IMG/VR virus record: IMGVR_UViG_3300037076_000126
Coordinates: 1 to 23,672 of that record
DNA length: 23,672 nt
Source: a virus
Direction: 5' to 3' (one strand)
Shown: positions 6,052 through 22,885 of the stretch, piece by piece
Numbering within the stretch: the stretch's first letter is position 1
How the letters are laid out: each line of letters opens with the position of its first letter
Notes under the pieces: model-generated
The model's input: only the letters and a program-made list of their open reading frames with translations
Databases searched by the model: none
What the model was told of the DNA's origin: nothing
Translations under genes and position numbers: made by a program

Positions 6052-7353
6052 GTTATTTGATAATATTTCCGATATTTTCTTCATATCCCAATAAGGAATT
6101 CTTAATAATTTAATATTGTTATTTTTAGCATATTCATCCTTACGACGATCATGCTCTTTTGTTTTTAATAACTGGTCTTCTGTTGTTTTAGTTCCTCCAA
6201 AATACCCCTCACCATAATGCTGTTCCCCATCATACTCAATTAATAAATTCTGAGATGGAACGAAAAAATCGTATCTTAATAGTCTATTTCCAATTCCCAC
6301 TAGCCCATTAAATGTTTTCTGGCGTTGATATTCTAACATATTGATGTCTAAATAAACTCTGACTTTATGTTCTCCACTTGATAATTCGCAATATGGACAT
6401 CTACCATCATTTATATGCTCATATGGAATTTTTGAAAATGTTTTGTTGCATGTATTGCATATTATCTGAACTTGTGTATGTGCATTGATATAATTAACCA
6501 GAGAATAATTAAACAATTCTCCATATGTTGAATGTGCAATTTCAATCCATTTATGAGTAGTATATGGAACATTTCCAGCACATATTCCACATCCATGTCC
6601 TAGCAAATGTTGCATTGGCGTTTGTGGAAATTGTATATTACAAGTGCGGCATGTTATAATTACATGTGTGATTGCATTTGTATATTTCACAAATTCATAG
6701 CCATATAAGTCGCCATGTATGTGTTCAGCACGTTTAATAAAGTCAACTACGTTTGAGTGACAATTACCAGCACATTTTGAGCAGCCAATGCCTTGTAGAT
6801 GGTTAGATGCTCTTATATTGAATTCTCCATGTATAGGACAGATTACAATTCCGCTTGATTTTGAATCTGTATATTTAAATTTATGATAAGAATAGAAAAA
6901 GTTATGAATAATATTGGAACGAGTAATAAATTCTTCGATTGTCATTCGCCTGATATTTCCAACGTGTTCTACACTACATAATGGACACCCTTGACCACGA
7001 AGATGGTTTCCGGCCATTTGACTAAATACCGAATTATGAGAAGGACATATAATATCTATATGTGATTTAATATTTTCCCACTTGACTAAATCATATTTAT
7101 ATTTATTATTATGTATATTATTAGATTTAATTATAAATGTATCTAATGTATACGGCACATGATTAGAACACGCTGGACATCCAATGCCTTGCAGATGGTT
7201 AGATGCTCTTATATTGAATTCTCCGTGATATGGGCATATAACAATTCCTTTAGTATGCGAATCTACATAAATAAAATTGCCATAAGAATAGAAAAAGTTA
7301 TGTTCGATATTTGCTTTATCTATATATTCCGTCTGTGTTAATGGCTTACTCAT
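6037..7353 (-). CDS. Homing endonuclease with zinc-ribbon repeats and an EDxHD (Vsr-like) nuclease domain
   Basis: A 438-residue free-standing endonuclease. Residues about 36-325 hold five repeats, each with paired CxxC or CxxH sites around a pattern like ICPxHGEFNIRxxNHLxGxGCPxC, the DUF723-type DNA-binding zinc ribbon known from phage homing enzymes. Residues about 325-430 form a Vsr-like nuclease: Glu328 (SSGEHK), Asp362 (RYDFF), Glu373 and Asp375 (LIEYDGEQHY), His379 and Asp402, matching the EDxHD family. The protein ends KLLRIPYWDMKKISEIL, a tail also found as a remnant after the polymerase gene. It lies between a glycosyltransferase and a P-loop gene. A structured 5' region at 7357-7450 precedes the ATG, with no Shine-Dalgarno, which suggests translational control. 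Confidence 0.85.
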   Translation of the reverse strand: MSKPLTQTEYIDKANIEHNFFYSYGNFIYVDSHTKGIVICPYHGEFNIRASNHLQGIGCPACSNHVPYTLDTFIIKSNNIHNNKYKYDLVKWENIKSHIDIICPSHNSVFSQMAGNHLRGQGCPLCSVEHVGNIRRMTIEEFITRSNIIHNFFYSYHKFKYTDSKSSGIVICPIHGEFNIRASNHLQGIGCSKCAGNCHSNVVDFIKRAEHIHGDLYGYEFVKYTNAITHVIITCRTCNIQFPQTPMQHLLGHGCGICAGNVPYTTHKWIEIAHSTYGELFNYSLVNYINAHTQVQIICNTCNKTFSKIPYEHINDGRCPYCELSSGEHKVRVYLDINMLEYQRQKTFNGLVGIGNRLLRYDFFVPSQNLLIEYDGEQHYGEGYFGGTKTTEDQLLKTKEHDRRKDEYAKNNNIKLLRIPYWDMKKISEILSNNLTIP

Positions 7354-7356
7354 AAT

Positions 7357-7450
7357 CTGTCAGTGCCTTTTAATTTTAAATAGGAATACTACCTTAACCA
7401 TGAACTGCTTTGTTGGCACTGACAGTTGGTTGTAGTGGTAGTATTCCTAT
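7357..7450 (-). promoter_or_regulatory. Candidate H-type RNA pseudoknot in the leader of an endonuclease gene
   Basis: Two perfect inverted repeats are interleaved. Arm A, CTGTCAGTGCC (7357-7367), is complementary to GGCACTGACAG (7415-7425). Arm B, ATAGGAATACTACC (7380-7393), is complementary to GGTAGTATTCCTAT (7437-7450). The order A-B-A'-B' cannot form nested hairpins but is exactly the H-type pseudoknot order. In the minus-strand RNA the stems are 14 and 11 bp with loops of 11, 21 and 12 bases, the last being A/U only. The final arm ends three bases before the ATG of the endonuclease (7353), covering the ribosome-binding region. A near copy of part of arm A (TGTCAATGCC, 7471-7480) lies further upstream. 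No known riboswitch class was recognised. Confidence 0.7.
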
Positions 7451-7510
7451 AAATTGTTTCTTAGTTATAATGTCAATGCCTTATATTATACATATAAGCA
7501 AAGATAAGAA

Positions 7511-8845
7511 TTATTCAATCTTTTTTAAGGAAGGAAGTTGTATACGTTTTAATTTAGGAAGCACTATAGTCGATGCACGAGGAATCTCTGGTATATACTT
7601 GTCCAATAACTCAAATAGTCTTTCTTCCATTTTCTTTAGATTAAACTTTCCCCTATTCTCCATTCCTAATTTAATTGCTTTATCAATCCTTTCTTGAGAA
7701 TAGTTAAAGAAATAATCTTTCATTTTTTCCGATGCTTTAGCATAATCAACCTCGAACCATTTACTACCGGAAATGATCCATGAATTTACACTTTCTGGAT
7801 GAACATCTACCAACTTACCTTCGAAAAAGTCAGCGTATTTTTCATCCATAAAGTCTAGTTGACCAGAATGTTTTGGAAGCAGTGTCGGTTTTAATGCAAA
7901 TGTAGATGCTAATGAGGAACCGCCCCACGATTCCCCGAATGTGAATGATAAAAATACTTTTACCTTTTCACAAGAATGTAAATATACCATTTCCTTTTCA
8001 CTTAATTGGCCATAAAACAGGTAAATATTTGGGAGTTTAACATTACCACCCAATTGATTCTTAACCATGTTAGTAATCTCATTTAACTTATTGATACACT
8101 CGTGACGATCAACCGTTCCAACTAAAGGTCCATTAGTTTTCAATATTAAACATGGAGGATTATCAATTCCGGCAAATGTTTTGAGGAATGTTTCAATTAA
8201 TTTACCGGTATTTTTTCTATCACTATTCATATTACCACCCCACATACCACTATAGAAAAATGCAAAGGTTTCAGGAATTTTTGCTAATTCTTCATCAATA
8301 GAAGATACTGGCTCAATATTAGCAAATAATTTATCATCTTGTCCCCACATTAAAGTTTCAATTGGTTTATTTAAGACCAATTTTTCACTTGAACCATTAG
8401 GATTCTTTTTAAGATATTCTGTCTTAGTAGCAACTTCTTTATTAAATTCTGACATTAATATATTTAAATTCATATTATTGGAACCTTCGATGAATGTGGC
8501 AGGATACTGGGTAGTCTCTATACCCGCAGAAATTCCAATATTAACATTACCATTAGGTTTAAAGTCGCACGGTAAAGAAATCTGACACCACACGTCGGGT
8601 TTCTTATTTAAATTTTCTCTTAGAATTAATTGTATTAATTCCATTGTTTCTGGATCAGATGCTAACTCATTTATATCACGATTTGAGCAGCTTCCCCATT
8701 GATAAGGTATAAGTTTTAAATTCCAATCTTTCTTCTTACAATACTTGTTGATTATTTTTGCAATTTCTAATGAATATCGGCCATAGCCGCTTGAATTTAG
8801 AGCTGGAGATTGTAAAACTACTAATGGTTTGTTGTTATTTATCAT
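7511..8845 (-). CDS. Glycosyltransferase, GT-B fold (GT4-like)
   Basis: A full-length 444-residue GT-B enzyme. The N-domain starts VVLQSPALNSSGYGRYSLEIAK, with the Ser/Gly loop after the first strand. The C-domain starts near FAFFYSGMWGGNMNSDRKNTGKLIETF, where the Arg-Lys after the strand is in the usual diphosphate-binding place. The signature region is LSFTFGESWGGSSLASTFALKPTLLP (about residues 299-323), with Glu305 as the first acidic residue of the E-x7-E motif and the second replaced. The C-terminus is a basic tail (LKRIQLPSLKKIE). The gene is flanked on both sides by homing endonuclease genes, with only two bases between its ATG and the stop of 8848-9579. Confidence 0.75.
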   Translation of the reverse strand: MINNNKPLVVLQSPALNSSGYGRYSLEIAKIINKYCKKKDWNLKLIPYQWGSCSNRDINELASDPETMELIQLILRENLNKKPDVWCQISLPCDFKPNGNVNIGISAGIETTQYPATFIEGSNNMNLNILMSEFNKEVATKTEYLKKNPNGSSEKLVLNKPIETLMWGQDDKLFANIEPVSSIDEELAKIPETFAFFYSGMWGGNMNSDRKNTGKLIETFLKTFAGIDNPPCLILKTNGPLVGTVDRHECINKLNEITNMVKNQLGGNVKLPNIYLFYGQLSEKEMVYLHSCEKVKVFLSFTFGESWGGSSLASTFALKPTLLPKHSGQLDFMDEKYADFFEGKLVDVHPESVNSWIISGSKWFEVDYAKASEKMKDYFFNYSQERIDKAIKLGMENRGKFNLKKMEERLFELLDKYIPEIPRASTIVLPKLKRIQLPSLKKIE

Positions 8846-8847
8846 AT

Positions 8848-9579
8848 TTATTTTATTTTTAATTCTTTTTCTGTTATTACTTTAAATTTATATCCGTTGA
8901 TTTTACAAAATTTTTCGGCGGCAACTATCTTCGTATATGCATTTTTATAATTCTTTTGTATGCTTTTCATAGGTTTGACCTCTTCTATAAGAGTATCACC
9001 AATCAAAAAATCTGGTATATAATGTCGCAACTTTCCTTCGTCATCGTTGTATGGGATTGCAATTTTATGTCGCTTTGTCCACATAATTCCAAGTTCATCC
9101 AATTGATTCATACGTATCAATTCATATGAACTAGCATAATATTCTGATTTTCCCGATAATTTAGAAGTATAATATCCAGTTTTATAGAATTTAGACCCAC
9201 ACAATCCAAGACTTGCTTTGTGGAGATTTCCGCACATAGGAGAGCAAAATCTCTTGGTTTCTTTTTTCTGAGCATAAAAACTTAAATTACACCATTCACA
9301 TTCTTTCATAGTTCCAGTTCTGGGTCTTGGTGGGTTTGTGTGTTGCCATTTAAACTTACATGTATTTGAGCAGAAGTGATAGTTTGACCTATTTTTATCC
9401 GATTTACATTTTAATAGTTGTAAATTACACCCATGACACATAACAATGTCCATATTTTTATGGATATATTCAGTATAACATTTTTTACAGCAAAATTTTC
9501 CATATCCTTGGAGAACGATATATTTTTTAATATAAAATATATTTTCGCAATTTTTACATGATCGTTTTATCTTTGCCAT
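8848..9579 (-). CDS. Homing endonuclease-like protein, Cys-rich N-domain plus PD-(D/E)xK nuclease
   Basis: A 243-residue protein. Residues 1-120 carry at least four CxxC-type pairs (CKNC, CCKKC, CHGC, CEWC, FCSPMC), expected to bind zinc and DNA. The second half is a PD-(D/E)xK nuclease: Glu153 in SSYELIRMNQLDELGI, then YIPDFLIGDTLIEEVKP with Pro-Asp at 189-190 and Glu200-Val-Lys202, similar to TnsA-like and phage mobile endonucleases. It ends VITEKELK, shared with its paralogue at 12595-13347. It follows a ribbon-helix-helix gene by one base and precedes a glycosyltransferase by two bases, a typical site for an intronless mobile endonuclease. Confidence 0.75.
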   Translation of the reverse strand: MAKIKRSCKNCENIFYIKKYIVLQGYGKFCCKKCYTEYIHKNMDIVMCHGCNLQLLKCKSDKNRSNYHFCSNTCKFKWQHTNPPRPRTGTMKECEWCNLSFYAQKKETKRFCSPMCGNLHKASLGLCGSKFYKTGYYTSKLSGKSEYYASSYELIRMNQLDELGIMWTKRHKIAIPYNDDEGKLRHYIPDFLIGDTLIEEVKPMKSIQKNYKNAYTKIVAAEKFCKINGYKFKVITEKELKIK

Positions 9580-12594: not shown

Positions 12595-13347
12595 TTATTT
12601 TAACTCTTTCTCCGTTATTATTCTATATTGATAATTATTTAATTTACAATATTCAATGGCGGCATCATATTTCAAATTGTTATTATCAACTTTACTCTTT
12701 ACTAAATTACTCGGTTTAACTTCTTCAATTATATTACTACCAACTAGAAAATCAGGAACGTAATTTCTCGTATTCCCAACTGGATCAACGTAGGGAATTC
12801 TAATTCCATGCTTCTTCGTCCATTTAATATTTAAATTATCCAATTGTTTCATTCTTTTTTCTTCATATGATGATCCAAACCATTCATCGTTACCTGTTAC
12901 AGTTGAATGATGCCATCCCTGCTTATAGAAATTACGTTTAGGATTGCATTTTCCTTCAGCTATTAATTTAGAACGAGAAAGGGACATATTAGGATTATAT
13001 TTTCCTCGCTTAAATTGTCCGGCACATTGTATCGAACAACATTTCTGAGTTACATGGCACTTTTTAGTATAAAACACTGTATTACAAAAGGCACATGTTT
13101 TATATTCTCCTAATTGTTGAGTCTTTCTCAAGTATTCTTTCCGACATTGTTTAGAGCAGTATTTATTAGCATCTATTAATAGTTGACTGTGCTGAGTTGA
13201 TGTGAACTCTTTATTACAGCATAAACAATTCTTTGTTCGGTTGAATCTGTTATATGGCAATTTTAATGATTTGTGATAACAACTATGAGAACAATATTTT
13301 CTGGATGATTTTATATCCATGTTACATGTTTTACATTTATTATTCAC
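12595..13347 (-). CDS. Homing endonuclease-like protein, paralogue of 8848-9579
   Basis: A 250-residue protein with the same plan as 8848-9579. The Cys-rich half has pairs CKTC, CLCC, CSKQC, CAFC, CCSIQC. The nuclease half has SSYEEKRMKQLDNLNIKWTK, then YVPDFLVGSNIIEEVKP with Pro-Asp at 198-199 and Glu209-Val-Lys211, and ends RIITEKELK. The two proteins match closely in the nuclease half and diverge in the zinc half, as expected for enzymes that have changed target. The start is a GTG that overlaps the TGA of the glycosyltransferase fragment upstream (GTGA), so translation is coupled to it. Unlike its paralogue it has no ribbon-helix-helix partner. Confidence 0.75.
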   Translation of the reverse strand: MNNKCKTCNMDIKSSRKYCSHSCYHKSLKLPYNRFNRTKNCLCCNKEFTSTQHSQLLIDANKYCSKQCRKEYLRKTQQLGEYKTCAFCNTVFYTKKCHVTQKCCSIQCAGQFKRGKYNPNMSLSRSKLIAEGKCNPKRNFYKQGWHHSTVTGNDEWFGSSYEEKRMKQLDNLNIKWTKKHGIRIPYVDPVGNTRNYVPDFLVGSNIIEEVKPSNLVKSKVDNNNLKYDAAIEYCKLNNYQYRIITEKELK

Positions 13348-14333
13348 ATTGCATCAATTCTGGTTTGAATTTTACTTCTGTCAATTTTAGGTATTTCGAA
13401 TCCTAGTTTACCTCTTGTCATTGTATTGCCGACATGATCTTTAACGGAATAAACTCCAAATGCTTTAGGCTTAACCCAATTATTAAATACAAATTCCATA
13501 CAGTTAACAAACTGTTCTCCCATGTTTTTTGCATTGATTCCACCAGCCCCCAGTGCCCATTCCCTACCTTCCTTGCCATATTGTTTACGAGTTTTATGAG
13601 GAGTCATATACCAATACATAAATCCCTCGGCAAAATCCTCAAACTTTGCAATTTCGTCGAATATATAAGGCGTAGGAATACTTCCTTGAACCATTCTTGT
13701 TGCTGGCCATACAGGATATGCCCAATTACCACATTTCTTATATTTTCCATCGCTATTACTTCCCCAATCACCGGTAAATTTTAATGGATTTCCAGTATCA
13801 TCTACAAAGCCCATTTGATCTTGAAGCCCCCCCGTTACTGTTGCAATTATAGGAGTTCCGGCCATAACACTCTCAGCCGTAGAAAGTCCGAATCCTTCTG
13901 AACTAGAAGCACATACAACAACGTCGGCACAATTATATAACAGGTTTAAATCGGTGGGAGAAAGCTTTCCCGGTGAGAATAATATATTATAATTAGGGCA
14001 TAGAGATTCTTTTACAGCAACTAAATTAGTTCCGGCATCAAGTGCAATCTCGCAATGTAGAACTAATAAAATTCTAGATGCTTCTTCCGGAGTTAAATTA
14101 TCACAAAATTGTCGGTAGGCTAATATTATATTACTTGTTCTTTTTCGTTGAATATTTCGAGAATTATATAATAATATAAAATTATATTCTTTACCTTGCG
14201 TTAATTTTTTACGAAATTCAATAAAGGCAGGATCAGTATGCGCTATTGGCTTAAATGTCGTTGATGATATACCATGAGGAACGGTATGAATTAGTTTCTT
14301 ATTTACTATTTGATTATTAAGTTTGAATGCCAT
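13344..14333 (-). CDS. Glycosyltransferase GT4, C-terminal (nucleotide-sugar) domain as a separate protein
   Basis: A 329-residue protein that starts at the point where an intact GT4 enzyme would cross from its first to its second Rossmann domain: LIHTVPHGISSTTFKPI (residues 14-30). Next come FILLYNSRNIQRKR (donor phosphate-binding Arg/Lys) and ASSSEGFGLSTAESVMAGTP, with the E-x7-E pair Glu146 and Glu154. The N-terminal acceptor domain is missing here but is encoded just upstream at 14347-14922. The two ORFs are 13 bases apart and in different frames, so this is a split glycosyltransferase whose halves probably assemble. A homing endonuclease follows with a four-base overlap. Confidence 0.75.
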   Translation of the reverse strand: MAFKLNNQIVNKKLIHTVPHGISSTTFKPIAHTDPAFIEFRKKLTQGKEYNFILLYNSRNIQRKRTSNIILAYRQFCDNLTPEEASRILLVLHCEIALDAGTNLVAVKESLCPNYNILFSPGKLSPTDLNLLYNCADVVVCASSSEGFGLSTAESVMAGTPIIATVTGGLQDQMGFVDDTGNPLKFTGDWGSNSDGKYKKCGNWAYPVWPATRMVQGSIPTPYIFDEIAKFEDFAEGFMYWYMTPHKTRKQYGKEGREWALGAGGINAKNMGEQFVNCMEFVFNNWVKPKAFGVYSVKDHVGNTMTRGKLGFEIPKIDRSKIQTRIDAM

Positions 14334-14346
14334 ATTATTTATTTAG

Positions 14347-14922
14347 TTATTTGGTTGTTATTAAATTTCCATCTTGGTCAAATTCTCCTTCTAATGATAT
14401 ACAATTTAAAGGATCACATACATGTTTCGCTACGTTATTTGATTGTTGCGATATAGCAAGGAGCGCATCGACGGAATCATAACTGGGACGATTCCATTGC
14501 GGCATCATTTGTGAATCCCAAATATGCCAATACACTAGTGGTATTCCCATTGCATGAATTTGTGCCTCAATTGCAAAAAGCCACATATACTGCCTCGGAT
14601 CTGTAATTGCCGCTATTGCGTCTGGTTTCTCAATTTCGATTATTTGAAATAAAATATTGGCGTCACCATAACCATTAACCGGATATAATTTACAATAAGC
14701 ATCTTTAATATTTGCTTCTTCGTTGAAGTGTTGCGACATATCACAAATCTTACCTAATTCCGGGTGCCCATTCGCCCCTCCCAATAAAGTATAGTCATAT
14801 TTATGCACAGTTTGCTTAACCATTTCCTTTGTTGCGACACTTACGCCTGAAAAAAATCTTATATCATCGGATATAAAAAGTATCTTTTTTTTCTTATTGT
14901 TGTTTGTATTATTGTTATTCAT
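14347..14922 (-). CDS. Glycosyltransferase GT4, N-terminal (acceptor) domain as a separate protein
   Basis: A 191-residue protein. After an Asn/Lys-rich start (MNNNNTNNNKKKK) it reads ILFISDDIRFFSGVSVATKEMV, the first strand and Gly/Ser loop of a GT-B N-domain, then PDAIAAITDPRQYMWLF, IPLVYWHIWDSQMMPQW and VDALLAISQQSNNVAKHV. The last is the segment that in whole GT4 enzymes stands 15-30 residues before the VPHGI motif beginning the C-domain, found in the next ORF. It ends with a short tail (DQDGNLITTK) and TAA. It is preceded by an endonuclease gene one base away. Confidence 0.7.
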   Translation of the reverse strand: MNNNNTNNNKKKKILFISDDIRFFSGVSVATKEMVKQTVHKYDYTLLGGANGHPELGKICDMSQHFNEEANIKDAYCKLYPVNGYGDANILFQIIEIEKPDAIAAITDPRQYMWLFAIEAQIHAMGIPLVYWHIWDSQMMPQWNRPSYDSVDALLAISQQSNNVAKHVCDPLNCISLEGEFDQDGNLITTK

Positions 14923-14923
14923 A

Positions 14924-16033
14924 TTATTTATTGATTAATTCTCCTTTTCTGTTAAATATCATTTTTCTATAGTTATATCCGGCATCGATAACGGCGGCTT
15001 CCTTTAAATTTAGATATTTTGTGGTTTTATTTGTCCAATCCGACTTAACCTCGACTATTAAATTGTCTTTTTTGATATATGCATCTGGATAATATCGACG
15101 AGATATTCCGTCTGGGGAGGTGTAACGTAATATGGGCATATCCTTATAAGACGTTGTTATATCATGTTCCGAATAAGTTTTAAGTAATTCATCTAAGCCA
15201 AATGGTTCATATCCTTGGACTTTAATGATCTTACCGGATGGCAAAGTATAAGATTTTCGTTGATGTGCTGCTTTTTGTTGTTTTAATATAATTTCTGGAC
15301 AGTGCATCGGACTTGATACTCCGTAGTTTTTAAGGCATGTTTGTCTTGATTTCTCTTTAACTTCTTCTGTCTGATTGGCGTTCTCCACTCCATATTTTCG
15401 CAAACACGTTTGTCTTGATTTTTCTTTAATTTCCGGAACTTGAAACCCATTGCTTACTCCATATTTAAGAAACATTGTATTTTTATATGCGTCAGTCATA
15501 TGCTTTACGTTTTCTTCAGATTCCCATCTTTTTGACGTAAGTCTGGACATATTTTTAAGCCTGTCATCTGTTTCCTTAGTCTGTCCTTTATTCCATATGA
15601 ATCTATTTTTATGTATGTTAGCAATTCTAACGTCAGTTTCTTTAGTTAGGCCGGTGTTCCATTTTGGATCGTGTCTGCATATATAGGTATGATACCCAAT
15701 GTCTAAATTTTTAAATGACGGGGTTCTTCCGCATCCACATTTACAAGTTGGTATATTTCCCAACAATACAAATTCGTTGTAGTAGTTATGTGAAGTCATA
15801 TTATGACATTTATCAAGATGACATGAAAATCTAGTTGCATTTTTAATTATTCTATTGCAAATTTTACATTGATGTGGGGTTTGTTTTGGTGTCCTTGTTC
15901 CGATAGGAGCGGCTGGAAATTGCTTTATATACTCTGCAAGTGTGATATCATGAACACGTTTCAAATGAGAACCATTAACTCTCGTTTTCATATTCAAGCC
16001 ACAAATTTCACATTTTATAAAAATATAATTCAT
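14924..16033 (-). CDS. Homing endonuclease with C2H2/C4 fingers, NUMOD-like repeats and PD-(D/E)xK domain
   Basis: A 369-residue protein. Residues 1-80 contain two zinc fingers (CEICGLNMKTRVNGSHLKRVH and CKICNRIIKNATRFSCHLDKC) and residues 97-120 a further Cys/His cluster. About 185-245 is a three-fold repeat of LKYGVxN...EIKEKSRQTC, typical DNA-recognition repeats of phage mobile endonucleases. The C-terminal domain has GYEPFGLDELL (Glu276), YYPDAYIKKDNLIVEVKSDW (Pro-Asp 316-317, Glu328-Val-Lys330), a PD-(D/E)xK nuclease. Its ATG overlaps the TGA of a ribbon-helix-helix gene. It sits directly before the N-half of the split glycosyltransferase. Confidence 0.8.
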   Translation of the reverse strand: MNYIFIKCEICGLNMKTRVNGSHLKRVHDITLAEYIKQFPAAPIGTRTPKQTPHQCKICNRIIKNATRFSCHLDKCHNMTSHNYYNEFVLLGNIPTCKCGCGRTPSFKNLDIGYHTYICRHDPKWNTGLTKETDVRIANIHKNRFIWNKGQTKETDDRLKNMSRLTSKRWESEENVKHMTDAYKNTMFLKYGVSNGFQVPEIKEKSRQTCLRKYGVENANQTEEVKEKSRQTCLKNYGVSSPMHCPEIILKQQKAAHQRKSYTLPSGKIIKVQGYEPFGLDELLKTYSEHDITTSYKDMPILRYTSPDGISRRYYPDAYIKKDNLIVEVKSDWTNKTTKYLNLKEAAVIDAGYNYRKMIFNRKGELINK

Positions 16034-18558: not shown

Positions 18559-20298
18559 ATGTTTAAAGCAATTTTTAATGATAAATTAAACGGAATCGTG
18601 CATGTGCTTGATGATAGTGATGATCGCTGGCAACAATACCCATCATCTGATTTCCATTATGCTTATAGAAAATCTACTACGGGAACTTTTACATCGATTT
18701 ATGGTGATAAACTTGAAAAAATAACTTCTTTTGATGAAACAGATACCGGCTTATTTGAATCCGATTTAAATATAGAAATGAAGGTATTATTAGATTTGTA
18801 TAAGGGTAATGAAGAAGTCAGTAAAGGCCATAGAATTGTTATTTACGATATTGAAACGTCAACTCTTGGTGGTTTCCCGAATGTAATGCTCGGCGATAAA
18901 GAAATCACAGCCATTGCATTATATGATTATGCAACCGATAAATATTATTCCCTTATTCTTGATAAAGAAAATAAAGTCCAAAATAAAATTGAGGGTAATC
19001 AAACTTTAAGAGCCTTTGAAACGGAAGTTGGATTATTATCTAATTTTCTAACCCTCTGGAGAGAATTAAATCCTACTATAATTTCCGGGTGGAATATTTG
19101 GAACTTCGACGATCCGTATATTTATAATCGAATTAAAGTAGTTCTCGGTAAGAAAGCAACTTATAAATTATCACCTCTAGGAATCGTTTACCAAAATCAA
19201 TTTAATAAAAAATTAGTTATTGGTGGAGTATCTTCTTTGGATTATATCGAATTGTATAAGAAATGGTGCCCCGTGATGAAATCATCATATTCATTAGCCA
19301 GCGTTTCCAATGATGAAGAATTAGAACATCGAAAATTAACTTATAAAGGAAATTTGGATGATTTGTATCGTGATAATATAGAACAGTTTATAAATTACAA
19401 TTTAGTTGACTGTAAAATTATTGTTGACATCGAAAAAAAGTATAAATTCATCGAGCTTGCGATTTCTATTTGTCACAAGGGACATGTGAATTACGAAAGT
19501 TTTCGTATGAGTTCTAGGTGGATTGATGGTGCTATTTTAGATTATCTTCATACTGAGATGAATGTCATCGCCCCAAATAAACCAGCCGAAGGACGCCAAA
19601 ATTATGAAGACATGATTAAATCGGATGAAGAAGGATTTGAAGGTGCGTATGTAAAGGTGCCCCAAGTTGGAATTCATAATGATATAAGCGCACTGGATGT
19701 GCAGTCATTGTATCCGTCGATTATACGCACATTAAATATTAGTCCAGAAACTAAAATTGGCAATATAAAAAACTGGGATTGGGATGAATATAACAATGGT
19801 AATTTAAAAGAAATTCAACTGAATGAAATGGTTTATACTATGGATGAATTTAAGCGTATGATTTCAAATCACACCATGTCAATATCGGGGTGTGGAACGT
19901 GTTATACATTATCAAAGATAGGAGTAATTCCTGCTATATTAACTCAATGGTTTGAAGAACGATTAAAATATAAGAAACTTCAGCACGATTATAATATATC
20001 AGGGGACAAAATTAAAGAAGAATATTATAATTTAATCCAAAATAGGACTAAGGTGTTCCTCAATACATGTTATGGAATTTTGGGCCTACCTATCTTTCGT
20101 TTCTACGACCTCGACAACGCAAAATCTACCACGATTTCTGGGCAAATTATCATTAAAAAATCAGAAGCATTTATCAATGCAAAGTTCCAAGAAAAGTTGG
20201 GTAAGAAATATAAAGTTACATATGAAGACGGGACAAATGAAGTAGTATATAAAAACCAACTCGATCTGAAAGAACGAGGAATAATTATAAACCTATAG
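18559..20298 (+). CDS. 43: DNA polymerase family B, N-terminal part (exonuclease, fingers, motifs A and B)
   Basis: First 579 residues of a T4 gp43-like replicative polymerase. The 3'-5' exonuclease has Exo I YDIETS (Asp97, Glu99), Exo II SGWNIWNFDD (Asn179, Asp184) and Exo III YNLVDC (Tyr280, Asp284). Polymerase motif A is SALDVQSLYPSII (Asp380), motif B is NRTKVFLNTCYGILG (Lys498, Asn502, Tyr505, Gly506). The second catalytic aspartate pair (motif C) is missing because the ORF stops at TAG 20296-20298. It continues, in another frame and from a new ATG at 20309, with the residues leading to YCDTD. The last ~30 residues (KYKVTYEDGTNEVVYKNQ and onward) form a beta-like insertion that seems to be cut in the middle. 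This piece alone cannot polymerise; it must pair with, or be joined to, the rest. Confidence 0.9.
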   Translation: MFKAIFNDKLNGIVHVLDDSDDRWQQYPSSDFHYAYRKSTTGTFTSIYGDKLEKITSFDETDTGLFESDLNIEMKVLLDLYKGNEEVSKGHRIVIYDIETSTLGGFPNVMLGDKEITAIALYDYATDKYYSLILDKENKVQNKIEGNQTLRAFETEVGLLSNFLTLWRELNPTIISGWNIWNFDDPYIYNRIKVVLGKKATYKLSPLGIVYQNQFNKKLVIGGVSSLDYIELYKKWCPVMKSSYSLASVSNDEELEHRKLTYKGNLDDLYRDNIEQFINYNLVDCKIIVDIEKKYKFIELAISICHKGHVNYESFRMSSRWIDGAILDYLHTEMNVIAPNKPAEGRQNYEDMIKSDEEGFEGAYVKVPQVGIHNDISALDVQSLYPSIIRTLNISPETKIGNIKNWDWDEYNNGNLKEIQLNEMVYTMDEFKRMISNHTMSISGCGTCYTLSKIGVIPAILTQWFEERLKYKKLQHDYNISGDKIKEEYYNLIQNRTKVFLNTCYGILGLPIFRFYDLDNAKSTTISGQIIIKKSEAFINAKFQEKLGKKYKVTYEDGTNEVVYKNQLDLKERGIIINL

Positions 20299-20308
20299 AC
20301 TACACAAT

Positions 20309-20731
20309 ATGAAGAAAATAATTAAAATTGAAGAAGTAGAACACGATGATTATGTTCAATACTGCGATACGGATAGTGTGACCGGAGATTGTTTGATTTC
20401 GATCAACGGAATTGAGTCTAAGATAGAAGATATATGGAACACTATAAATACAACAAAAGAAATCGTTGATATTTCGGGTCGATATTACAAATTTCCCACA
20501 TCTACAACATTACCATATTATGATGAGACTAATTCGGTAGTTAAAATGGGTGGTGTGAAGTATATAGAGCGTCACAAAACACGTAAAAAAGTCTTTCTAT
20601 TAAAAACATCTCTTGGAAATTCAATTAAAGTAACGGAAGACCATTCTATAATGATAGTTGATAAAAACGGGAAACTTATTAAAAAGAAGCCAAAAGAATT
20701 AAATAAAGGAGATAAATTGATTTCTATTTGA
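20309..20731 (+). CDS. DNA polymerase middle fragment fused to the N-half of a split intein
   Basis: A 140-residue ORF in two parts. Residues 1-22 end DDYVQYCDTD, the start of polymerase motif C. From Ser23 the sequence is an intein N-half: block A SVTGDCLISING, then a long beta-rich stretch, and block B GNSIKVTEDHSIMI (Thr109, His112). It ends GDKLISI-stop after 118 intein residues, the normal place for a split. Ser1 followed by VTGD is what is seen in archaeal polymerase inteins inserted at the same DTD|S site. The matching C-half is at 21866. The ATG follows the previous stop by ten bases with no Shine-Dalgarno (a GAGGA at 20276-20280 is too far), so reinitiation after the TAG is likely. 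Confidence 0.9.
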   Translation: MKKIIKIEEVEHDDYVQYCDTDSVTGDCLISINGIESKIEDIWNTINTTKEIVDISGRYYKFPTSTTLPYYDETNSVVKMGGVKYIERHKTRKKVFLLKTSLGNSIKVTEDHSIMIVDKNGKLIKKKPKELNKGDKLISI

Positions 20732-20733
20732 TA

Positions 20734-20767
20734 TTTATATAGATACAACACTATGTATCTATATGAA
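20734..20767 (+). promoter_or_regulatory. Hairpin that contains the start codon of the endonuclease gene
   Basis: ATATAGATACA (20737-20747) is perfectly complementary to TGTATCTATAT (20754-20764) across a six-base loop; three more pairs (one G-U) extend the stem to 14 bp, 20734-20747 with 20754-20767. The ATG of the endonuclease (20763-20765) is in the 3' arm, so the initiation region would be closed in a long transcript. There is no U-run, so it is not an intrinsic terminator. Occlusion of an endonuclease start by a hairpin is known for T4 I-TevI. Confidence 0.7.
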
Positions 20768-21890
20768 AACAAAACAACTTAAATTAAAACGTAATCGATT
20801 ACAATATTGTGAGAAACTATTATCTAAAGGATTGACTGAGCGTGAAATAATACCATTACTCAATACTTTCTCGGTAAGAAATAAGAACTATTGGTTAGAG
20901 CGAGATTATTCAATTGAAGAATCGGTCATGATGGCAAGGTCTAGAACGCCAGGAACAATTGAATATTATAAGATATATAAAAATCTATCGGAAGAACAGT
21001 CGAAAAAGGCGGTAATCGAGTATCAGTCTAATAAAGTAAATACATTGGAAAATTTTATTAGGAAACACGGACAAGAAGAAGGAGATAAAAGATTCAAATC
21101 ATATTGCGAAAAGCAAGCGTATTCGAATACTCTAGAATATATGATCAAAAAATATGGAGAAGAAGCCGGAACTAATAAATATTACACAGCCAATAAAAAT
21201 AGAGCAGTTACATTAGAAAACTGTATTAAAAAGCATGGCAATGAACTCGGAGCACAAATTTACAGTAACTATGTTAAGAAGCAGCGGACGAATGGGAAAT
21301 CATTAGAATATTTTATACAAAAACTAGGAAAAGATGCAGGAACATGTAAATATATAACTTTAAATAAACAAAAGGCACAGACATATAATAATTACTTGAT
21401 TAGAAATAATGGAGATGTAGAAAAGGCTGCCGCAGCATTTGATACTTATTGTAAAAACAGATACAATTCAGTTACCACTAAACGTGGAGTTTCTGCTTCA
21501 TCTCAAGATTTCTTTGGAAAATTACATATGGAATTAATTAAGCTTGGTATAGAAAAGATATTCTATGCATCATATAATCAAGAATGGATAATTAATATTA
21601 TAGGTAAGCGAGTAGTATATTTGGATTTCTTTGTTAAGAGTCTAGGTAAAGTTATAGAATATAACGGGGATTATTATCATGCAAATCCGACCAAATTTAA
21701 ATCGACAGATAAAATAAATTGCTATGGAAAGGAGCGTCTGGTAGAATTGGTGTGGAGTGATGAGAAATCACGCTTGGATGATATACGAAGTGTCCCATAT
21801 ATAAAAGATATACTTGTAATATGGGAAGGTGAAGTAAATGATAATGAACATGAGGTTATAAAAAAATGCATACAATTCCTTTTAAAATAG
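20763..21890 (+). CDS. EDxHD (Vsr-like) homing endonuclease between the two split-intein halves
   Basis: A 375-residue free-standing protein. About residues 94-207 hold four tandem repeats of roughly 28 aa with the pattern LExxIxKxGxExGxxxYxxxxxK, probably reading DNA. Residues about 247-355 form a Vsr-like nuclease: Asp288 (VVYLDFF), Glu299 (VIEYNGDYYH), Asp303, His306 and Asp333 (WSDEKSR). This endonuclease class was first described inside fractured genes with split inteins. Its product should cut a polymerase gene lacking the insert and so spread the cassette. The ORF ends 25 bases inside the following intein-C/polymerase ORF (different frame), and its start codon sits in a strong hairpin, so expression is probably limited and coupled. 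Confidence 0.85.
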   Translation: MKTKQLKLKRNRLQYCEKLLSKGLTEREIIPLLNTFSVRNKNYWLERDYSIEESVMMARSRTPGTIEYYKIYKNLSEEQSKKAVIEYQSNKVNTLENFIRKHGQEEGDKRFKSYCEKQAYSNTLEYMIKKYGEEAGTNKYYTANKNRAVTLENCIKKHGNELGAQIYSNYVKKQRTNGKSLEYFIQKLGKDAGTCKYITLNKQKAQTYNNYLIRNNGDVEKAAAAFDTYCKNRYNSVTTKRGVSASSQDFFGKLHMELIKLGIEKIFYASYNQEWIINIIGKRVVYLDFFVKSLGKVIEYNGDYYHANPTKFKSTDKINCYGKERLVELVWSDEKSRLDDIRSVPYIKDILVIWEGEVNDNEHEVIKKCIQFLLK

Positions 21891-22885
21891 ACGAACTAGA
21901 AGAAATTATAGAATTGGGCGAACTGGAAGAATATTTTTATGATATTGGGATGGAAGACACCCCACATACATTCTTTGCTAATGATATTTTAGTTCACAAC
22001 AGTAATTTTTTCTCCATTACGCCCCTATTAAAATGCAATTCTATTTCGGAAGAAGGGAAACAGGAATATTGCATTGACACTACAAAAGAGTTGGCGGCAG
22101 GAATTAATAAGTTGTTCGAGTATATGATGCCGAAGGTATTCAATGTTCCAGCTAGTAAAAATAAGATTAAAATTGTGCCAGATATCATAGCACAAAGAGC
22201 AATATGGTTTTCTAAGAAGCGTTATGCATTATTAACTACTTTCAACTTTGAAACGGGGAAACCTATCAAAGATAAATTGGGAAATGTAGGTAAAATTAAA
22301 ATTAAAGGTGTAGATTCAGTGCGTTCCTCATATGCGCCGAGATTTAGAACATTGCTCACAGAATTAATAGAACAACTGTTAAGGGGTAAAGACACTAGTC
22401 AAATTGACCAAGAAATAATGGAATTTGAAGAAAACATAAATAATCTTGCGCCGGTTGAGTTGTGTAAAACATCATCAATTAAATTTATTAGTATGAAAGG
22501 TGATAAGAATTATAGCAAAGGACGAGAACCATTTGGAACAATAAAAGGATCGCCAGTTACAGCAAAAAGTGGCAATTTCCATAATGATTTATTAAAGATA
22601 TGGAAATTGGATAAGACATATGAGATGATTAAACATGGTGATAAGTGTAAATGGGTGTATTTGATGCCGAATCCATATAATATTGATTCGGTTGCATTTA
22701 GGGGAGATCAATTGGATTCTGAAAAATTGATGGAATTTATTTCAGAATATATAGATAAACAAAAGATTTATACTAAAGAATTAAAAACCAAATTAATTGA
22801 TATATATGCCGCAATTAATAGGAATTTCCCTAATCGTGGGTCTGAATATGCGGCCAAAATATTTAATTTTAATGAAGAGTGGTAA
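21866..22885 (+). CDS. C-half of the split intein fused to the DNA polymerase C-terminal part
   Basis: Residues 1-45 are an intein C-half ending in block F/G: EYFYDIGMEDTPHTFFANDILVHN, with the penultimate His44 and the cyclising Asn45, then Ser46 as the +1 nucleophile. From Ser46 the chain is the rest of a family B polymerase: SNFFSITPLLK completes motif C (ligated YCDTD-SNFF), then FSKKRYALL (Lys-x-Tyr, palm), IKGVDSVRSSYAP and the thumb up to AAKIFNFNEEW. Protein splicing would release a 163-residue mini-intein. Polymerase residues total 579 + 22 + 294 = 895, close to T4 gp43 (898). The start has GAGG ten bases upstream, inside the endonuclease gene that it overlaps. Confidence 0.9.
   Translation: MHTIPFKIDELEEIIELGELEEYFYDIGMEDTPHTFFANDILVHNSNFFSITPLLKCNSISEEGKQEYCIDTTKELAAGINKLFEYMMPKVFNVPASKNKIKIVPDIIAQRAIWFSKKRYALLTTFNFETGKPIKDKLGNVGKIKIKGVDSVRSSYAPRFRTLLTELIEQLLRGKDTSQIDQEIMEFEENINNLAPVELCKTSSIKFISMKGDKNYSKGREPFGTIKGSPVTAKSGNFHNDLLKIWKLDKTYEMIKHGDKCKWVYLMPNPYNIDSVAFRGDQLDSEKLMEFISEYIDKQKIYTKELKTKLIDIYAAINRNFPNRGSEYAAKIFNFNEEW

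Follow-up and report, generated by a model that had tools for sequence, protein, structure and literature searches.

Two-chain family-B DNA polymerases are known in archaea (the split PolB of Methanothermobacter and of Nanoarchaeum), and the Nanoarchaeum halves are joined by an intein. In T4-related phages (Aeromonas phage 25, 44RR, Aes508, and Acinetobacter phages) the family-B polymerase is likewise encoded as two chains, gp43A and gp43B, and in some of these splits a homing endonuclease lies in or near the break. Excerpts from a 2010 review state that the phage 25 chains co-purify and are active, that the split NrdA of phage Aeh1 (mobE) is an enzyme in pieces that keeps its function, and that the reassembly of split phage polypeptides is a fascinating structure-function question (PMC2988022). 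The split of T4 genes 39 and 60 and the bypass in gene 60 are described in excerpts of PMC3014915 and PMC2988022. A split intein at polymerase motif C accompanied by an endonuclease is also a known layout (Aes508, PA5oct, PTm1, MIJ3), described for MIJ3 in part of PMC6892783. Here we analyze the family-B polymerase gene of IMG/VR record IMGVR_UViG_3300037076_000126, a 23,672-base virus record referred to as the window. This gene carries a motif-C split intein and a second break about 20 codons before motif C. The second break probably reflects genuine splitting of the polymerase gene at a recurrent point of endonuclease insertion, giving a two-chain enzyme with a beta module across the cut.

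The window polymerase is encoded on the plus strand in three open reading frames (ORFs). The N-chain (18559..20298) has 579 residues, contains the exonuclease domain, motif A, and motif B (FLNTCYG), and matches Pfam DNA_pol_B_exo1 (4.7e-20) and DNA_pol_B (1.4e-24). Its C-terminal tail (20206..20295) is predicted to form a hairpin (KYKVTY/NEVVY) and a helix (KNQLDLKE) that are missing from the closest intact relatives, and it stops at TAG 20296-20298. A 10-nucleotide intercistronic gap (20299..20308) separates this stop from ATG 20309, where the second chain opens in the +1 frame. Frame 2 does not open before 20291, and both frames share 20291-20295. ATG 20309 is not preceded by a Shine-Dalgarno-like motif. 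Such a motif lies within 20 nucleotides of only 2 of the 27 window gene starts, and AT-rich leaders without one are the rule. The start of the second chain is the N-extein (20309..20374), made up of the extension MKKIIKIEEVEHD and the polymerase strand up to motif C (YCDTD). The C-chain N terminus reads MKKIIKIEEVEHDDYVQYCDTD, which puts the Asp of motif C about 20 codons in, and is followed by the Int-N half (20375..20731) of an intein inserted between DTD and S. Int-N matches Pfam Intein_splicing (3.2e-10) and a solved relative, 9hth (E 7.2e-10). A VSR-type homing-endonuclease-like ORF (20763..21890) lies between the intein halves, Int-C (21866..22000) ends in ILVHN, and the C-extein (22001..22885) supplies 294 residues from the Ser of motif C (SNFF) to the polymerase end. 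Int-C and the C-extein share one ORF (21866-22885). The intein retains the block-B T..H, the HN, and the following Ser. This arrangement, 66 nucleotides downstream of ATG 20309, is the same as the 'fractured gene' layout of Aes508 and Tenacibaculum phage PTm1; the window endonuclease belongs to the Aes508/PTm1 family, whereas PA5oct and MIJ3 have another endonuclease type.

The second break does not have the features of an intein. Block A, block G, a nucleophile, and a splice junction are absent from the N-chain end and the C-chain start, and the block-B T..H is found neither in the window tail nor in the tails of three relatives described below. An intein at this position was rejected. The two adjacent window ORFs do cover a protein that is a single ORF in relatives L013 and L014 (loci carry our own L numbers), which is the arrangement of genes in pieces; NrdA of Aeh1 is a different gene from the one split here. 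The original prediction, a reading of the letters alone, had placed the TAG, the ATG ten bases on in the +1 frame, and the overlap at 20291-20295, had called the break a non-intein one, and had proposed chains of 579 and 316 residues as the likely product. All of this agrees with the ORF reading, in which the C-chain after trans-splicing has 22 + 294 = 316 residues. Its comparison of the position with the Aeh1-type gp43A/gp43B split did not survive. Aes508 gp43A has 498 residues and is cut before motif B, which is found in gp43B, so that the Aeh1-type split is at a different place; the window N-chain holds motif B and is cut after it. An Aeh1-type split was therefore rejected for the window.

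The break point was compared among polymerase loci in several sets. The first set had 80 loci, of which 5 lacked one half and could not be judged; in the remaining 75, by our own count, 55 read through the break point and 20 are broken. L072 was classed as intact because its reading ends later, in the motif-C Int-N. In a second set, 78 of 80 loci read through, and the two broken ones, L159 and L162, are one phage. The 22 broken loci and LR756508 share a cut that falls after one particular palm helix and before motif C. Nineteen of the broken loci (within L069-L092) form an uncultured marine-type clade in which the polymerase is stably split at the same site. Among 74 further loci with a motif-C Int-N, the reading extends 100 residues or more ahead of Int-N in 68, is short in 5, and leaves the contig in 1; one of the short loci, L232, is cut at the same place. 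Scans of viral_contigs with the window N-chain alone or with the LR756508 N-chain gave nothing usable. IMG/VR records from 5 metagenomes show the L159 layout with 100% identity over 1580 nucleotides.

A tree was built from 179 N-chain stretches, reduced to 133 by the removal of 9 duplicates and of near-copies, and thinned to 79. The broken state changes five times on this tree, at the window, L066, L159, LR756508, and the marine clade, and all five changes are forced by starred branches; the count does not separate gains from losses. Adding L232 gives six changes, five of them forced. The window nests with L013 (68% identity) and L014 (62%) with support of 99 and 100 in the Shimodaira-Hasegawa approximate likelihood ratio test (SH-aLRT); L159 and LR756508, like the window, have intact sisters. 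Long branches meet in the tree, as in the pairing of L066 with L054. These sequence comparisons place a cut at this point in about six lineages. They mark the site as a recurrent target and the window break as something other than a random stop.

The contents of the breaks differ among the lineages. Endonuclease-like ORFs fill those of L066 (285 residues), L159 (shorter than that of L066), and L232 (354 residues), and these three are related to the VSR-type ORF of the window at 72.8, 15.8, and 20.2 bits, respectively (among 11 sequences). The LR756508 break is 3 kb long and holds several other ORFs. The marine-clade breaks hold nothing, a small ORF, or ORFs that resemble Smr or SET domains by eye, and in several of these loci the two chains overlap by 4 nucleotides. 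By eye, the LR756508 polymerase (L005:864-3917 and 6923-8788) also seems to bear a further intein in motif B, and its motif-C intein site is shifted from that of the window, lying between YxD and TDS.

These breaks bear on whether the window makes one chain or two. Recoding by +1 frameshifting or by short ribosomal bypassing across the stop would give a single chain. The stop and the start are only 10 nucleotides apart, an 8-nucleotide direct repeat, AATAATTA, stands in the right register at 20280-20287 and 20317-20324, and L066 and L159 have bypass-like inserts of 8 and 5 nucleotides further on, at motif C. However, the frames overlap by only 5 nucleotides without a slippery heptamer, the stop context is CTA TAG, and the AT-rich repeat could have arisen by chance. 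With 0.5-3 kb and other ORFs between the chains in L066, L159, L232, and LR756508, two chains are enough in those cases. We consider recoding in the window quite unlikely. The view of the original prediction that separate initiation is likelier than frameshifting gains from these relatives, in which the same two chains lie up to 3 kb apart, and from the lack of a slippery site.

In L066 (9670-9730) a short C-chain ORF ends inside motif C in the sequence GAC ACC TGAAG ACC GAC, and in L159 (8260-8300) in GAC ACT TG ACT GAT. Past these inserts the polymerase resumes in another frame as TDS. Matched codons flank the stop, which points to ribosomal bypassing like that of T4 gene 60; reinitiation would also be possible at an NTG that overlaps the TGA. 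The L066 insert is known from one contig, and that of L159 is identical in 5 metagenomes.

The read-through sequence of the window polymerase, an artificial construct, was modeled by AlphaFold2 with 42 intact homologues. The predicted local distance difference test score (pLDDT) is 82.9, the palm is of high confidence, and Foldseek retrieves RB69 gp43 and archaeal family-B polymerases with this model. The cut falls in a disordered linker with pLDDT below 50, between the hairpin and helix of the N-chain and a C-chain strand, IIKIEE (pLDDT near 80), that leads to motif C. The model thus shows the cut in a predicted flexible link; binding between the chains is outside what a read-through model shows. 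It agrees in outline with the earlier claim that one beta module is cut in the middle. The idea that an intact insertion of this kind is the ancestral state is not supported: the closest intact relatives, L013 and L014, have no insertion at the break point, and an ancestral beta insertion was rejected. The original prediction is thus borne out in part, and it missed the recurrence of the site and the intein-like tails of the relatives.

An assembly or sequencing indel would also produce two frames from a true gene that is continuous and has about 40 extra residues, an in-frame beta insertion, ahead of motif C. A second assembly of the junction was not found (an exact 40-mer gave 0 matches in viral_contigs, a set that very near records may lie outside), so a local indel error in the window could explain the break. 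In-frame insertions are present at the same point in L020-L022, L039, L046, L049, and L041, and the read-through folds into a plausible module. Nevertheless, the error would have to hit the exact spot that is broken in about five other lineages, the adjacent ATG yields an extension resembling those of split relatives, and sisters L013 and L014 are without the insertion. An indel is unlikely on balance, though it deserves more weight than recoding. Decay of the polymerase to a pseudogene, in a dying phage or allele, would account for two interruptions within 450 nucleotides. Nonetheless, the frames of both halves remain long and open with their catalytic motifs in place, the block-B T..H, HN, and following Ser of the intein are intact, and the breaks persist across the diversified marine clade of 19 loci. 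We regard decay as highly improbable.

In L066, L159, and LR756508, the last 43-44 residues of the N-chain have no counterpart in intact relatives. These three tails align almost without gaps to the ends of six motif-C Int-N sequences and share their end point. The beta pattern, R-[ND]-G, and the closing L...D are conserved in them, whereas the block-B T..H, present in all six Int-N ends, is missing (block names after PMC6892783). Comparison of the tails with the Int-N ends by hhalign gave a probability of 93.4% and an E of 2.5e-7. When a profile of the tails was run against 2503 ORF ends, the first five non-seed matches were all Int-N ends (E 3.4e-4 to 0.11). Conversely, with the Int-N profile the three tails came 10th, 12th, and 13th of 2503; the rows between them are other Int-N-like ends, and the first clear non-intein is 16th (E 0.046). 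Shuffled L066, L159, and LR756508 tails reached the real score against Int-N in 0, 1, and 0 of 5000 trials. The tails of these three lineages are related to the block B-N4 part of Int-N; block A and the block-B His are missing. Modeled with L066 only, the L159 tail has the pattern EEEE-H, with pLDDT 60-67 over most of the tail and 48.8 overall. Six of 772 re-aligned PDB chains reach Z 2 with this model, led by three inteins (Z 2.7, 2.6, and 2.2), two of which align over their residues 68-116 and 78-126. This fold match is weak alone, but the model was built free of intein sequences. A tblastn search with the L159 tail gave 7 records at E 7-8, six of them Pseudomonas jumbo phages with coordinates in the polymerase Int-N, which is suggestive only; the L066 tail gave no tblastn match.

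Several results weigh against a fission driven by an endonuclease with an intein-derived module across the cut. There is no endonuclease at 20299-20308, the second break of the window, and the window's own endonuclease ORF begins 465 nucleotides downstream of the stop. The window tail is not significantly similar to Int-N (536 of 5000 shuffles as good) or to the other tails (1906 of 5000; pairwise p 0.24-0.42), and it is too short to show an intein origin. The 19 marine loci and L232 are cut at the site and have no such tail, and L232 sits on a long branch for which the tree tool warns of long-branch joins. PDB sequences yielded no intein to the tail profile and no match to a single tail, and the Z scores of the L159 fold match are only 2.2-2.7, for a model with a pLDDT of 48.8. 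The likeness of the C-chain start MKKIIKIEEVEHD to Int-C is nearly equaled by native polymerase segments (6.9 vs 7.1 bits).

With these points counted, fission at a recurrent endonuclease insertion point is still the reading that we favor. A VSR-type mobile endonuclease, of the family found in the neighboring motif-C split intein, most likely once entered the break point. It would later have been lost from the window's break, leaving a stop and a new start 10 nucleotides apart. The two chains would be translated separately, and the split intein, judging by its intact blocks, would join the second chain to its C-terminal part. The mature enzyme would consist of chains of 579 and 316 residues with the palm rebuilt non-covalently, and the small predicted beta module, formed by the N-chain hairpin and helix and the C-chain strand, may aid this rebuilding. 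Because the related tails resemble the second half of Int-N without its catalytic parts, the module in the related breaks is probably a splicing-dead split-intein remnant that still docks the chains. We infer an intein origin for the window's own ends as well.

The halves of a split intein capture one another through the block B-N4 part of Int-N. Gene-breaking mobile endonucleases may conceivably leave this capturing half (Int-N blocks B-N4 upstream and the first Int-C strand downstream) as a docking clamp, without the splicing half, in several phage polymerases and in T4 gp39/gp60; we offer this wider proposal tentatively and hold it less likely than the fission itself. A mobA/bypass cassette is an existing idea for T4 39/60. 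The T4 genes 39 and 60, split by mobA, are a homing-endonuclease fission of an essential replication gene, as is proposed for the window, although the gene and the endonuclease differ. Row 5 of the fold look-up with the L159 tail is T4 topoisomerase (8yo4, residues 476-517). The last 43 residues of T4 gp39 (NC_000866) are missing from unsplit homologues. With a 120-residue gp39 query, 107 of 1814 records cover at least 80%, most of the partial rows listed stop near residue 77, and the KVP40 sequence runs straight on at the tail position. The tail is kept in Proteus phage SJ_PmiM and Campylobacter phage IBB_35. In SJ_PmiM an endonuclease follows gp39, and the gene annotated as 60 is once more divided in two. 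The gp39 loci are L187:3778-5328 (T4 gene 39), L188:1301-2845, and L189:1813-3324. The similarity of the gp39 tails to Int-N is weak (hhalign 41%, E 2.8e-4), and that to the polymerase tails is poor (hhalign probability 3.6%). For the T4, Proteus, and Campylobacter tails, 31, 3, and 270 of 5000 shuffles reached the real score against Int-N, and 57, 17, and 441 of 5000 against the polymerase tails. The gp60 starts, MKFVKID in T4 and MKFSKID in the Proteus phage, were set beside the C-chain starts of the polymerases, and that of T4 resembles MKIKKIK and MKTKKIK. MKIKKIK, MKIKQIR, and MKTKKIK fit a pattern that is present in 1 of 3185 ORF starts and was drawn up after seeing them; the window C-chain start does not fit it.

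Repeated breakage at one spot of a replicative polymerase, together with intein-like tails in three lineages, makes the reassembly of split proteins directly testable. The site would be a second fission point in the polymerase, one that tolerates a cut beside the active site. If the clamp proposal is true, an intein has been turned from a parasite into a clamp, which would explain how genes-in-pieces proteins find each other. A search by title or abstract start, which most subscription journals lie outside, found no published report of the break site, the intein-like tails, or the gp39/gp60 structure.

Elsewhere in the window, on the minus strand, a glycosyltransferase gene (13344-14922) is seemingly in two pieces of 191 and 329 residues, 13 nucleotides apart, and is perhaps another broken gene. 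The second piece matches Glycos_transf_1, and the first has no Pfam match. Endonuclease-like ORFs flank the pair at 14924-16033 (DUF7487) and 12595-13347 (TnsA-like). The latter and the ORF at 8848-9579, both on the minus strand, are paralogous TnsA-like/PD-(D/E)XK ORFs with Cys-rich starts (phmmer 111 bits).
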